A stretch of 36,452 nt of DNA from a virus. The notes below the pieces were generated by a model. The model was not told the origin of the DNA, made no database searches, and saw nothing but the letters and a program-made list of their open reading frames with translations. Where the stretch lies: the IMG/VR virus record IMGVR_UViG_3300025843_000004, positions 1 to 36,452 of that record; one strand, 5' to 3'. This document shows positions 196 to 35,639 of the stretch, in pieces. Positions within the stretch are counted from its first letter, which is position 1. Each line of letters starts with the position of its first letter. A program made the position numbers and the translations under genes.

Positions 196-849
196 TCACG
201 CCATTGCTCCGAATATGAGCCGTTGGGCGACGGTCGGAATCTCTCCCGCCTGTTCTGCCAGGAAACTCCTCAGTCCTTCACGTTGAGCCTGGTCGCCTCT
301 AAACCAGCCGGTTCCGTCCACTGACTTTGCCCCGTGCTTTGCCGATACCCGAAGCCAGCGTAGGGTATTGACGCGACCGATATGAACATGGTCAAATGCG
401 TCACACCACATGCCAGCGGTGTTCCATTTCCATTCCGTTGATCCTCCAACGAAGATGACTTCGGCTGCGTCCGGTACGTCCTCTGGCATCATGCCGTCCT
501 GTACGGCGAAGGCTGGCCGGAATCCGCATGCCTTGACTTCTGATGCGTACTGATGCCAGAGATCCAGAGTTGCCAGCTTATCGCCAACTACGTCAGGGAC
601 GAGGCTCCAGATTGGTCTCTGTCCACATTCCTGCGCCCATCCCAGGAGTGACCGCCATGCGTGAACGTCCCATGCCTTGCCGCTTGTGAATGCTCCGAAC
701 GCGCCGTTGTCGAGCGCATATGGCAGGAAGGGGAACGGGCCACGTTGAGCGCCTGGGCTGTAGAGGTGTCCAAGTTGCCCCTCGTAGCGTCCGGCGAGGT
801 AGCCGACCCATGCTCCGGTGCAGTTTGCCGGCATGATGGTCATGGTCAT
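196..849 (-). CDS. DpdA-like / queuine tRNA-ribosyltransferase-like phage protein
   Basis: The 217-residue product resembles the phage DpdA/TGT-like family, related to enzymes that exchange guanine for a 7-deazaguanine base in DNA or tRNA. Visible signature segments are ALDNGAFGAF near residue 46, PDVVGD near 85, FAVQDG near 113, FVGGSTEWK near 133, HIGRVNT near 156 and SVDGTG near 175. The Asp residues in DNG, PDV and VDGTG are the likely active-site acids by analogy with TGT folds. The zinc-binding Cys cluster of bacterial TGT is not visible. The ATG overlaps the stop of the primase-helicase gene (ATGA), so it is probably translated with it as the last clear gene of the early operon. No preQ0 synthesis genes lie in the window, so the substrate would have to come from the host. 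Family assignment is from motif pattern; activity on DNA is inference. Confidence 0.65.
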   Translation of the reverse strand: MTMTIMPANCTGAWVGYLAGRYEGQLGHLYSPGAQRGPFPFLPYALDNGAFGAFTSGKAWDVHAWRSLLGWAQECGQRPIWSLVPDVVGDKLATLDLWHQYASEVKACGFRPAFAVQDGMMPEDVPDAAEVIFVGGSTEWKWNTAGMWCDAFDHVHIGRVNTLRWLRVSAKHGAKSVDGTGWFRGDQAQREGLRSFLAEQAGEIPTVAQRLIFGAMA

Positions 850-2750
850 GTCATCTCCCTTGCCAGTTCGTTTGCATTGGCGATCCGTTGTTCCTCGCTG
901 ATGCGCCTGGTGTTCCTGATAGCAGGTGAAACGAGAGTCGGCGTTGATGCTTTTGGTTTGGATGCCTTCTCGTCATCAGGTGCCAGTATGCCAACATCAC
1001 GGAACCTCAACGTCTGGCCGTCAAATAGACATCCAACCGTGAGTCCACCTCCACGACCGTGCCTGCTTTTCGTGATCTTTATGGATCGGTTGCATGAAAG
1101 GATGTCTCCGTTGACATCCCTTCGCTCCTGGTTGTCGAACTTCTCCAGCCACAAGGCAGAATGGCTAAATCTTGGGTATGCGCTTCCGCCTGCCATTCCT
1201 GCCAGGCTTGACCCCTTAGATGATCCTCGGGGGTGAGTAACAAGTATCACGCTAGAGCCGTGTTCACGGGCAATTTTCTTAACTCGCATGAGGAACGCGG
1301 TATCTGCCGCCCAAGGTTCACGCTCCGTTACTGCTGCCGTTACAGGGTCCACAACGATGATGCGTGCCCCTCCCTTTGATTTAAGTTCAATCCATTCTGC
1401 AATGTCCGCCATTGTCATCTGGTTCTCAGCCTCGGCCTTGATGCACGAACCTATTGAGTCGATGACTTGCCGGTACTGCTCTAGGTGTTGCATGGCTGTT
1501 GCCGGATTTGCCAGGCACCATTCATCATCTACAAGGTGCGATGCTCCGATCGTCTGCGCCAAGATGCGTTGGAGGTGGATTCTTCGTTCATCCTCTAACG
1601 CCAACATGGCAACCTTATGCCCACCATTCGACCAAGACATAATCATCTGGAGCATGAGCAATGACTTTCCTGCGCCTGGATCAGCGCAGAGGGTCGTTAT
1701 GCACCCAGGAAGCAGAGCCTTGGACAGCGACCCCACGCGAAGCATGTCCGGCCAAGGGACAGCCACATACTTGCCGGATGCGATGTCTCCAAACAGCCCT
1801 TCCAACTCATAGCTTGCCCCTTGTGGTGCGGCGTCGTCCATGATCCCGTTGATGGTCGATGCTATTTCTGATGTCGTCTTGCTGTCCAAGGCTTCGATCA
1901 GGTCGGCGACATCACCCTTTGGAGGAAGTCCGATTCCCGATGGGTCGATGGTTGCGACCGTACATCCGATGCCATCTAAGATATCTCGAACCTGCCGCAT
2001 ATGCTCGATGCCCGTACTCTTTCCGCTCTTGGGGTCGGTGGGATCGTTGTCGGGCCATAGGTACACCATACGTCCGGCCATCGTAGACCAGTCAGACGCA
2101 TCTGCCTTCCCAGCCCCCATCGCACTTGTCGTGGCCGGTATTCCGACTGACCAGGCTGCCTCGGCTGCCTTCTCGCCTTCGACAACAAGCACTCTGGGTC
2201 CTAACTCGTCCACCCGATAGAGCGGGATGCGGCCACGCTCCACTAAGTTGCGCGGAACCCAGCCGCCAGCGGTGGGGGTGAATTGGCGGAAGGTCTTTTT
2301 TCCGGTCGGGGGCATGATCCTGGCGACCACCAGGACCGGCTCCGCCTTCGTGCCGTAGGTGTACCATGATTCGATGCGTCCGATCCTCTCAGCGTATGCC
2401 TTGACAGCCATCTTGTCTGCCAATTGCAGATCCTCAGTAGGTGGCCTAGCGTTCAATTTGGGAGACTTTATTTCCAGATCCATCTCAGATTGCCTCGCGT
2501 GCTCTTTGAAGGCTTGGCGGGCATCCTGGCCGGTCGCGTGGGCGATCAGGTCGATGGCGTTGGCGTGCTTGGCGCAGACATGGCAGTACATGCGCCAGGT
2601 ACCGTCTTGTCCCTGTGACCATTGAGCAGATGGCGTTCGGTCGTCATGGAACGGGCATGAGCATGTCCGGCCCTTCACTTTGGAACCGGCTTGCTCCAGG
2701 GCGGCGATGAAGGCGGATTCGTCGCTTAGGATGGCTGGCGTTGAGTTCAT
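846..2750 (-). CDS. bifunctional primase-helicase
   Basis: A 634-residue replication protein with three parts. Residues 30-59 form a CHC2-type zinc finger (C32-P-F-H35 and C56-x-x-C59). A TOPRIM core follows, with VLVVEGEKAA at 187-196 and the acidic LWPDND at 231-236. The C-terminal half is a RecA-like helicase/ATPase: Walker A CADPGAGKS at 355-363, Walker B IIVVDPV at 464-470, and a THPRGSSKG segment near 515, as in RepA/AAA_25 helicases. It would prime and unwind DNA at the phage fork. The start is fixed by the ATGA overlap with the upstream O-like gene, which supports an initiator plus primase-helicase pair. The last 60 residues are Lys/Ser/Pro-rich and probably disordered. Confidence 0.92.
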   Translation of the reverse strand: MNSTPAILSDESAFIAALEQAGSKVKGRTCSCPFHDDRTPSAQWSQGQDGTWRMYCHVCAKHANAIDLIAHATGQDARQAFKEHARQSEMDLEIKSPKLNARPPTEDLQLADKMAVKAYAERIGRIESWYTYGTKAEPVLVVARIMPPTGKKTFRQFTPTAGGWVPRNLVERGRIPLYRVDELGPRVLVVEGEKAAEAAWSVGIPATTSAMGAGKADASDWSTMAGRMVYLWPDNDPTDPKSGKSTGIEHMRQVRDILDGIGCTVATIDPSGIGLPPKGDVADLIEALDSKTTSEIASTINGIMDDAAPQGASYELEGLFGDIASGKYVAVPWPDMLRVGSLSKALLPGCITTLCADPGAGKSLLMLQMIMSWSNGGHKVAMLALEDERRIHLQRILAQTIGASHLVDDEWCLANPATAMQHLEQYRQVIDSIGSCIKAEAENQMTMADIAEWIELKSKGGARIIVVDPVTAAVTEREPWAADTAFLMRVKKIAREHGSSVILVTHPRGSSKGSSLAGMAGGSAYPRFSHSALWLEKFDNQERRDVNGDILSCNRSIKITKSRHGRGGGLTVGCLFDGQTLRFRDVGILAPDDEKASKPKASTPTLVSPAIRNTRRISEEQRIANANELAREMT

Positions 2751-3517
2751 ACCAGCCCTGCCTTGATCTGCGCCTCAAGCTCACGGGCAGCGGCGATGGC
2801 GTCGGCGCTTGGTCGCTCGCTCGGCGGACACTCGTAAGCCTGGGGTTTCGGGTGGTTGCGTGATATCCAGTTCAAGACGAATCGGAATACTCCGCTCTTG
2901 GGTGCCCGCTTGGGGTTCTCAGTCGTCCAGCTCGCAGCCGCCTGGATCTCGGCGGTTATCCGCACGTCGGGGAACGTGTCAGTGAGCGTCGTCATCTCGC
3001 CAACCGATAGCCGTGCCGCCGATCCTGACTTGAGAGTAAACAATGGGCCGATGGAGTCGGCTTCGTTTCCAATCGCGCCTGTATTGTCTTGTTCTGTCTT
3101 GTCCTGTTCTGTCCTGTCCTGTCTTGTCTTGTAGTCCGGATGGTGTCCGGATGCTGTCCGGATGGTATCCGGATGCTGTCCGGATGAGTCAACTTCCTCT
3201 AACCATCCATTTTCCAAAAGCGTTGCGATACATGCCTTTATGTCGGCCTCGTTGGAGCGCGTCTTTAGTGCGATTTCTCTTGCACCGAGAATCCTTCCTG
3301 AGTCGGCAACGAGCAAACCCCTGGTCGGGCACTTACTCGCCACCTGGAGGATCAGGAGCCATCCGCCGATCATCCGGATGCCATCCGGATGACTCATCAG
3401 TTCCAGGTAGCCTAGTCCGTCGTGGTTCGTCGGGACAGCTACCCATGCCATCGTCTTGCACTTTCCGCTGTCTGATTTCTCAAACAGGGACCAGTTAGAG
3501 ATACGGAGAGCCTTCAT
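2747..3517 (-). CDS. replication initiator-like (O-like) protein
   Basis: The 256-residue product sits directly upstream of the primase-helicase. The N-terminal third (to about residue 107) reads as a winged-helix DNA-binding unit, with an ILGAREIALKTRS helix-turn-helix-like segment followed by IKACIATLLENGWLEEVD. This pattern is common in phage replisome organisers. Residues 114-145 are low complexity (HPD, SGH, TEQD units) because the DNA there is an array of 11-bp and 5-bp repeats. The C-terminal part, with FPDVRITAEIQAAASW and GVFRFVLNWI, resembles the end domain of phage replication proteins that load helicase. An ATG with GAGGT upstream overlaps the HNH gene stop (ATGA). By analogy with lambda O, the repeats inside the gene could be the origin it binds. 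Function is inferred from context and layout. Confidence 0.65.
   Translation of the reverse strand: MKALRISNWSLFEKSDSGKCKTMAWVAVPTNHDGLGYLELMSHPDGIRMIGGWLLILQVASKCPTRGLLVADSGRILGAREIALKTRSNEADIKACIATLLENGWLEEVDSSGQHPDTIRTASGHHPDYKTRQDRTEQDKTEQDNTGAIGNEADSIGPLFTLKSGSAARLSVGEMTTLTDTFPDVRITAEIQAAASWTTENPKRAPKSGVFRFVLNWISRNHPKPQAYECPPSERPSADAIAAARELEAQIKAGLV
3085..3129. repeat. nine tandem TGTYY pentamers
   Basis: The plus strand reads nine uninterrupted copies of a five-base unit TGT followed by CT, TC or CC. Five is not a multiple of three, so the minus-strand reading gives a 15-base cycle (the TRQD/TEQD run in the O-like protein). The array lies immediately beside the 11-bp repeats. The minus strand is purine-rich here and the plus strand pyrimidine-rich. 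Confidence 0.9.
3135..3189. repeat. five 11-bp iteron-like direct repeats (candidate origin)
   Basis: TCCGGATG occurs at 3135, 3146, 3157, 3168 and 3179, an exact 11-bp period with consensus TCCGGATGSTG. Eleven bases is close to one helical turn, so a bound protein would meet each copy on the same face. Since 11 is not a multiple of 3, the same octamer is read as HPD, IR and SG in turn, which argues that the DNA rather than the peptide is conserved. Placement inside an initiator-like gene matches the lambda O/ori layout. Origin activity is inference. Confidence 0.7.
3373..3391. repeat. second pair of the same 11-bp repeats
   Basis: TCCGGATG is found again at 3373 and 3384, with the same 11-bp spacing, about 190 bases from the main array and still inside the O-like gene. 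A separated pair with identical periodicity makes chance slippage a weaker explanation. Confidence 0.7.
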
Positions 3518-3876
3518 GATGCCGACCTCATAGCGATGCGCATTATGTGGATTGCCAGGAATGTAGGAAGCGCCCGTATGTCTCGCTCTAGGGCGCTGCG
3601 CTCACCGTGGCAGTCCTCGCATAGTGTTTCCAGAGCCTCGTTTGGTGCATCCCAGGGATCACCAGCATAGGACAGGTGGTTTACATTCAGAGTCTTGTCT
3701 GCGGAGCGACATCGGCAGCACATAAAACCATCGCGCTTCATTACCTCCATCCTACGCCGCTGCCATCTCGGATCGCGCAGCCTCTCGCTGTCGGTCACTG
3801 GCGTACCATCCGCCATGATCTCGTCGCATACATATCCAATATGGTAGACCCGGCCGCCTGGATCATCTTCGTGCAT
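3514..3876 (-). CDS. HNH endonuclease-like protein
   Basis: Starting at the ATG at 3876 the product has 120 residues. An upstream in-frame ATG at 3990 exists, but the segment between is low-complexity and lies in a self-complementary leader, while GAAAGGG precedes 3876. The core motif DPRWQRRRMEVMKRDGF leads into C-x-x-C, then NVNHL, then LCEDCHGE, the zinc-supported HNH pattern of a widespread phage family. The expected role is a metal-dependent DNA nicking or cutting activity. Phage HNH proteins often sit by terminase genes; this one opens the replication genes and overlaps the O-like start by ATGA. It could instead be a mobile homing-type nuclease, though its small size and integration in the operon argue for a resident role. 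Confidence 0.75.
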   Translation of the reverse strand: MHEDDPGGRVYHIGYVCDEIMADGTPVTDSERLRDPRWQRRRMEVMKRDGFMCCRCRSADKTLNVNHLSYAGDPWDAPNEALETLCEDCHGERSALERDIRALPTFLAIHIMRIAMRSAS

Positions 3877-3892
3877 GCTATCCCTTTCAGCC

Positions 3893-3972
3893 ACCGACGA
3901 GCGGCGCATCCAGCTAGCAGCCAGACAAGCGGGCATAACTCCGCTGCTGGTTTCTGGTGCGCCGCTCGTCGG
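3893..3972. repeat. 15-bp perfect inverted repeat in the HNH leader
   Basis: Bases 3894-3908 and 3958-3972 are perfect reverse complements (CCGACGAGCGGCGCA). They enclose about 50 bases that contain further partial pairing. On the minus-strand transcript this hairpin ends 18 bases before the chosen HNH start, so it could modulate translation or expose a binding site. No run of T follows, so it is not a standard intrinsic terminator. The rest of the 3877-4117 gap holds the promoter candidate and no convincing gene. Confidence 0.6.
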
Positions 3973-4039
3973 CTTGGTTGATATAGGCATTTGTTATGCT
4001 CCGCCGTCTTTCGGGCTGCTAGGCCCTTGGATGTTTTTA

Positions 4040-35172: not shown

Positions 35173-35639
35173 TTCATGTTTCGTAGGGCGGCGGCTGCCA
35201 TGAGGAGGTCGAGGTAGAGTTTGTTGGCAAGGTACTTGCGGACATGTTCCCGGATCTTCTCAGGATTGGCAGCGCGATACTTTCTTTCATACTCCCGCCT
35301 CTTTTCTAGATTAGCAGCGCGATACTTGCGGTCATGTTCCCGGATCTTCTCAGAATTGTAGGCGCGCCGCTTACGGTTAGATTCCTGGTACTTCTCTGGA
35401 TTGGCCGCGTACCGCTTGCGTGCTTGTTCCCGGTACTTCTCTGGATTGGAAGCACGTTGCCTGCGTGATTTATCCCGGAACTTCTCTGGATTAGCAGCAC
35501 GATTCTTGATTGCTAGTTCCCGTTTCTTATCTGGATTAGCAGCGCGGCACCTGCGGTGATATTCCCGGATCTTCTCTAGATTGGCAGCACGATACTTGCG
35601 GGCATATTCACGCTTCTTCTCTGGATCTTTGTAAGACAC
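35169..35639 (-). CDS. basic 15-residue-repeat protein
   Basis: From a GTG at 35639 the product has 156 residues: four lead residues, nine copies of a 15-residue unit (consensus NPEKIREYxRKYRAA) and a 17-residue tail (LYLDLLMAAAALRNMK). The longer frame to 35798 lies inside the neighbouring gene. Units like this are often found beside HNH nuclease domains in phages, but no nuclease domain is present here. The long, strongly basic helix could bind DNA. It sits between an unknown gene and the small terminase, so packaging or regulation is possible. Its DNA is AT-rich relative to the terminase. Confidence 0.6.
   Translation of the reverse strand: MSYKDPEKKREYARKYRAANLEKIREYHRRCRAANPDKKRELAIKNRAANPEKFRDKSRRQRASNPEKYREQARKRYAANPEKYQESNRKRRAYNSEKIREHDRKYRAANLEKRREYERKYRAANPEKIREHVRKYLANKLYLDLLMAAAALRNMK
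35223..35627. repeat. nine tandem 45-bp coding repeats
   Basis: Each unit encodes 15 residues beginning with N/D-P-E-K. Copies are diverged at the DNA level (for example CGGATCTTCTC, CGGTACTTCTC and CGTTTCTTATC at equivalent points), so the array is old or under exchange rather than freshly duplicated. The repeat length is a whole number of codons, unlike the iteron-like array. Confidence 0.75.

Follow-up and report, generated by a model that had tools for sequence, protein, structure and literature searches.

Iteron plasmids carry direct repeats at roughly helical spacing, which are bound by a winged-helix initiator and adjoined by an opening element. In bacterial oriC, the DnaA-trio is a short one-strand repeat with three fixed bases per unit that lies beside double-stranded initiator sites. 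In some phages the origin lies inside the initiator gene itself: lambda gene O carries repeats and an AT-rich opening region, and O proteins of the lambda type bind AT-rich single strands as well as iterons (PMC7466680). Similarly, SPP1 oriL lies inside gene 38 and consists of direct repeats bound by gp38 and an AT-rich opening region (PMC6316719). For most uncultured tailed phages, origins are unknown.

We analysed a virus record of 36,452 nt (IMG/VR IMGVR_UViG_3300025843_000004, positions 1 to 36,452; the whole stretch is called the window) and found a two-part repeat array within an initiator-like gene that has replication genes beside it. The features are:

846-2750, minus strand: DNA primase/helicase gene, directly downstream of the initiator gene (phrog_239, E 1.2e-39; AAA_25; DnaG zinc ribbon)
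2747-3517, minus strand: initiator-like (O-like/replisome-organiser-like) gene, an ORF of 256 aa
3011-3175, minus strand: stretch coding for the predicted disordered linker, residues 115-169 (AlphaFold); contains the pentamers and nearly all iterons
3080-3132, minus strand: pentamer array of 11 ACANN units (ACAAG/ACAGG/ACAGA/ACAAT), the sole long lag-5 chain of the record
3130-3134, minus strand: CTACA junction from iterons to pentamers, the family consensus before the first ACA
3134-3189, minus strand: iteron array, five copies of (C)ATCCGGA(C/T) at an 11-bp step (repeat and lag-identity analysis, TRF)
3182-3517, minus strand: part coding for the winged-helix DNA-binding domain, residues 1-112 (conserved in family alignments, AlphaFold)
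3371-3391, minus strand: two perfect CATCCGGATG palindromes (CATCCGGATG C CATCCGGATG) at an 11-bp step inside the winged-helix coding part, possible extra iterons
3514-3990, minus strand: HNH endonuclease gene, directly upstream of the initiator gene (phrog_589, E 8.8e-10)

The layout resembles that of the lambda origin in that iterons lie in the middle of the initiator gene past its DNA-binding domain, are followed by an A-rich, T-poor tract and have a helicase-loading gene next. Lambda iterons occupy 39-48% of gene O and precede a tract with 54% A and 20% T on the coding strand; in the window, iterons occupy 43-50% and pentamers 50-57% of the gene length. Unlike the window iterons with their 11-bp step, those of lambda are 18 bp long at 20-24-bp steps, and the lambda opening tract has no 5-bp periodicity, whereas the second part of the window locus is an ACANN array. 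Bacillus phage SPP1 oriL is also similar, with direct repeats and an opening region within the initiator gene (gene 38, for the replisome organiser gp38). In comparison, iteron plasmid origins lie outside the rep coding sequence, have longer iterons and typically carry host DnaA sites; near the window array we found no cluster of DnaA boxes, and the whole window has one TTWTNCACA match (36341). The pentamers share with the DnaA-trio a short one-strand unit with three fixed bases beside double-stranded initiator sites, but the period is 5 rather than 3, and there is no evidence of DnaA at the window array, whereas DnaA reads the trio.

The 11-bp repeats and the pentamers are the strongest signals of their periods in the 36-kb record. 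Copies of TCCGGATG start at 3135, 3146, 3157, 3168 and 3179, which are exact 11-bp steps, and further copies start at 3373 and 3384; other plus-strand copies in the window number two only (14892 and 25780). Lag-11 identity of the best 40-match stretch was 35/40 (at 3136), with a runner-up of 20/40, and was reached in 0/2000 codon shuffles of the linker. TRF recovers the same arrays. All five repeats at 3135-3189 and the two at 3373-3391 that a first-pass annotation of this DNA had described were located, and the peptide that it read as HPD, IR and SG in rotation is indeed what the iterons encode (SGQHPDTIRTASGHHPDYKTRQDRTEQDKTEQDNT). The two copies at 3371-3391 are less certain members of the array because HPDG at this site is partly a protein-family motif, as seen in family alignments. 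Iteron palindromy was significant in aggregate (p 5e-6); since it is weak for the window alone (p 0.19), we do not use it as a main argument.

The TGT/ACA triplet recurs in 11 units at exact 5-bp steps (3080-3132); elsewhere in the window the longest lag-5 triplet chain is 4, and codon shuffles of the linker reached the pentamer chain in 0/1000 (p<0.001). The same annotation had listed nine TGTYY pentamers alongside the 11-mers; these nine are present at 3085-3125, but the chain runs to 11 units and is a second, separately conserved element. Because the gene is on the minus strand, the 11-mers come first in gene order and the pentamers after. The window pentamers are 45% GC and so not strikingly AT-rich.

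An AlphaFold model of the 2747-3517 protein (20 homologues in the input) has a confident N-terminal winged-helix-like domain over about residues 1-112, with pLDDT >90 over about residues 41-110; residues 115-169 are modelled as disordered, and the C-terminal part as helical. Hence, the residues encoded by the array are predicted to form a disordered linker. Foldseek returned viral proteins, among them several whose annotation is replication initiator or replisome organizer; one match was significant and unnamed. A PDB fold search gave only generic winged-helix proteins, none significant. The proposal of an O-like gene with the layout of lambda O stood in its iteron position and adjoining primase-helicase and, less clearly, in its A-rich tract. 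The O-like sequence match did not reach significance (phrog_391, 'replication initiation O-like', E 0.11), the Phage_rep_org_N match was below the cut-off (E 0.25), and there is no significant sequence homology with lambda O, so that the case for membership in the lambda O family by sequence is weak. HNH genes recur beside these initiators, as at 3514-3990 of the window, in Paenibacillus phage Harrison (L190) and in a Synechococcus phage (L199).

The triple 11-mer motif is common to one other IMG/VR contig only (L059), and a pentamer scan picked up a further homologue (L048). Searching by protein pattern alone retrieved 18 nonredundant homologues, L059 and L048 among them; four of the 18 sit in Planctomycetota-lineage assemblies, and nearly all loci are metagenomic contigs. 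A tblastn search of named phages with the window protein and its relatives L060 and L068 gave no match, and a pattern search of viral contigs with the window protein found none. Because the DNA pattern was itself the means by which several families were identified, our statistics refer to the homologues retrieved by protein.

Homologues share one plan, in which a winged-helix domain precedes repeats at 11, 10 or 21 bp and these precede a pentamer array; CTACA often links the two arrays. The period is 21 (two turns) in several members and 10 in one. Repeat letters vary among the phages (ATCCGGAT; CTGGTAG/CTACCAG; GCTCAGAGC; CCAGCGGA; TCCCGGG), and the spacing is retained. Over the 90 nt before the pentamers (25 members), pooled identity peaked only at lags 11 (0.465), 22 (0.444) and 33 (0.415); the remaining lags gave about 0.25, without a comparable codon-period peak. 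Lag 11 over the protein-found loci gave a Fisher p of about 1e-15 against both nucleotide shuffles and codon shuffles. A linker lag-5 triplet chain had a codon-shuffle p<=0.005 in 14/18 of these homologues; L071 is a fifteenth, with six ACA units just beyond the tested stretch that make up the longest chain in this locus, L082 carries 6-bp units in place of pentamers, and the chain in the L072 linker was not significant by codon shuffle. The triplet is ACA in most members, GAA in L060, L068 and L081, GAC in L063 and ACG in L083. Within the unit, positions 1-3 hardly vary, and entropy at positions 4-5 is 1.65-1.69 bits; chain selection accounts for part of this pattern. The two letters preceding the first ACA (21 family members) are C in 81% and T in 90%, giving CTACA in all codon frames and in noncoding DNA. 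Average GC is 0.385 in the pentamer part (window 0.45) vs 0.578 in the iteron part, and T makes up 9% of the coding strand of pentamer stretches on average.

The array does not follow the reading frame. Across homologues its first pentamer takes up each of the codon frames 0, 1 and 2, and the array is noncoding in four: in L059, L074 and L076 it lies past the stop codon, and in L067 the end of the initiator ORF is followed by an HNH reading frame (3324-3770) and then by a 21-bp repeat and ACATAACATAACATAACG. The noncoding array of L059, taken by itself, might be a sequencing frameshift; those of L074, L076 and L067 are independent of it. Other homologues have linker peptides such as HNTTVHNTT, ELQDRTLQD or GMEGKEGKG. 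The pair L116/L119 is identical at 57/60 winged-helix residues but at only 10/20 of those encoded by the iterons, with the 11-bp period kept in both. Since the linker peptide is not kept and the array occurs in all frames and past the stop codon, we conclude from these sequence comparisons that selection on the array acts at the DNA level. Two other indicators were weak: the linker's lower third-codon bias was only marginal (p 0.07), and substitutions in close pairs, grouped by phase of 11, had no significant phasing. The first-pass annotation had inferred selection on the DNA, naming homologues that keep the peptide and lose the 11-bp spacing as its refutation; we found the opposite, with the peptide lost and the period kept. 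Its observation is thus confirmed, if understated, and its interpretation supported. To these our comparisons add the separate conservation of the pentamers and a plan that appears to extend to many initiator families.

ACANN arrays were also found outside the window family. Our scan of viral contigs found eight ACANN units in at least 119 of them. Among the matches listed, 66/121 distinct arrays were imperfect, with at least three kinds of NN; the permuted control CAANN gave 9/75 imperfect arrays, two of those nine again initiator-like. The 57 array ORFs outside the family (among the matches listed) match numerous distinct PHROGs, with names such as replication initiation, primosomal, DnaD-like, O-like and replisome organizer, and Pfam matches include DUF1376, Lin1244_N and others. 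Genes downstream include DnaC-like loaders, DnaB and primase-helicases. In many unrelated initiator or primosomal families of phages, an ACANN array comes after the winged-helix part, usually behind iterons of the family's own; iteron-like clusters often precede the arrays, mostly as judged by eye, and pooled peaks near lag 11 are weak. We found AGANN arrays in Faecalibacterium phage Lagaffe and Roseburia phage Shimadzu, and an ACCNN array in Paenibacillus phage Harrison. RepA of mycobacteriophage Miko, a different initiator type, has no array; RepA-type origins have published replication assays (PMC7157519). In the open-access literature searched, we found no account of the pentamer element and nothing that ties it or its peptide to phage origins; a description elsewhere is not excluded.

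Other short arrays were seen in these scans. Named Pseudomonas, Xanthomonas, Mycobacterium and Acetobacter phages (L192-L200) have initiator genes with 6-bp arrays after iterons (units GGGACA, AGAACA, CCCAAA, ACCANN and CACCTT). Perfect ACAAG or ACAGA tracts occur in phage DNA methyltransferase-type genes (L014, L019, L020, L025, L028, L029, L056 and L058, and additionally L042, L106, L135 and L158), some copies being in frame past the tract and others frameshifted. These look like phase variation by 5-bp slippage, and a pentamer array is not always an origin. In L157 (4481-6607), an ACANN-type array is located close to the N-terminus of an ORF with an additional match to MCM helicase; the virus may be archaeal, or the start may be misplaced.

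The methyltransferase tracts bear on whether the array is only a neutral microsatellite, growing by slippage without function in a tolerant linker. The linker is indeed predicted to be disordered, and array length varies (eleven units in L102, more in L107, L134 and L155). Slippage does not readily explain why ACA is retained while positions 4-5 vary (in part an effect of chain selection), why imperfect ACANN arrays (among the matches listed) are far above the CAANN control, why the iteron letters change between phages while the 11-bp step stays, or why the array is present outside the reading frame with order, strand and CTACA junction fixed; we consider it very improbable. Even less credible to us is selection for the charged-linker peptide (KTRQDRTEQDKTEQD) with the DNA repeat as a by-product. 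ACARG repeats do give an RQDKT-type peptide whatever the frame, but four homologues have a noncoding array, linkers differ as listed above, and no constant peptide comes from the 11-bp part.

Two further explanations grant the repeats a function other than replication, and we regard each as improbable. The repeats could be operators, with the initiator autoregulating its own transcription from the 11-mers and no origin role. Many plasmid initiators autoregulate, and helically spaced, partly palindromic sites here adjoin a winged-helix gene. These sites, however, are mid-gene or past the gene end, away from the promoter, and the pentamers and the replication-gene context are left unexplained; operator and origin roles could coexist. 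Alternatively, the pentamers may act as RNA, as a binding site in the initiator mRNA rather than an origin element. ACANN is on the coding strand in those initiator genes that we found and would be transcribed even past the stop codon, but the array is tightly coupled to helically spaced double-stranded DNA sites, and the pentamers occupy the position of the lambda opening tract.

Judging by comparison and layout, and without replication data, the array probably has an origin role, and a lambda/SPP1-type origin inside the initiator gene is the best reading of our analysis. We are confident, short of certainty, in a model in which the origin lies in the linker-coding part of the initiator gene, with iterons that bind the initiator and pentamers that serve for opening or loading. 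The winged-helix domain of the 2747-3517 protein would bind the 11-bp iterons, whose sites, one for each helical turn, would all lie on the same face of the DNA; the initiators would pack into a nucleoprotein complex. This complex would act on the adjoining ACANN array, with its A-rich, T-poor coding strand and lower GC than the iterons. The strands would open within this array, which is also where the primase-helicase would be placed; in other phages its part would fall to a DnaC-like loader or DnaB. What the sequences show is the two-part layout, its DNA-level conservation, its place in initiator genes and its replication neighbours; we infer initiator binding, strand opening and helicase loading, as well as a reading of the array in 5-nt steps, in which ACA would be recognized strand-specifically by repeated protomers of initiator or loader. 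That a 5-nt unit with three fixed letters reflects repeated protomers on one strand, as for the DnaA-trio with another step, is speculation.

We raise tentatively, without quite leaning towards it, the possibility that tailed phages in general use the ACANN array as a strand-specific origin element that has not been described before. Such an element would have 5 nt per protomer, would serve several non-homologous winged-helix initiator families in clade variants (GAANN, ACGNN, AGANN, ACCNN and possibly 6-bp units), and would always stand behind family-specific iterons. If so, the array would be the phage analogue of the DnaA-trio, and origins would be readable from sequence. The two-part signature of helically spaced iterons, CTACA and a 5-bp array, recognizable from sequence alone, would place the origin within about 100 bp in many phages. 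It also accounts for the odd RQDKT and HNTTVHNTT peptide repeats of phage replication proteins, as signals in the DNA and not features of the protein. The question raised is which protein reads a one-strand ACA every five nucleotides, and whether the DNA opens thereby.

GC skew did not mark the array site, its minimum being near 19-20 kb. A perfect 15-nt inverted repeat (CCGACGAGCGGCGCA; 3894-3908 and 3958-3972, 49 nt apart) is present where the HNH gene has its 5' end; lying upstream of the replication genes, it is a possible operator or hairpin. Near the record end (35233-35626), minus-strand reading frames contain about 8.8 tandem copies of a 45-bp (15-codon) unit, the copies being 68-72% alike.
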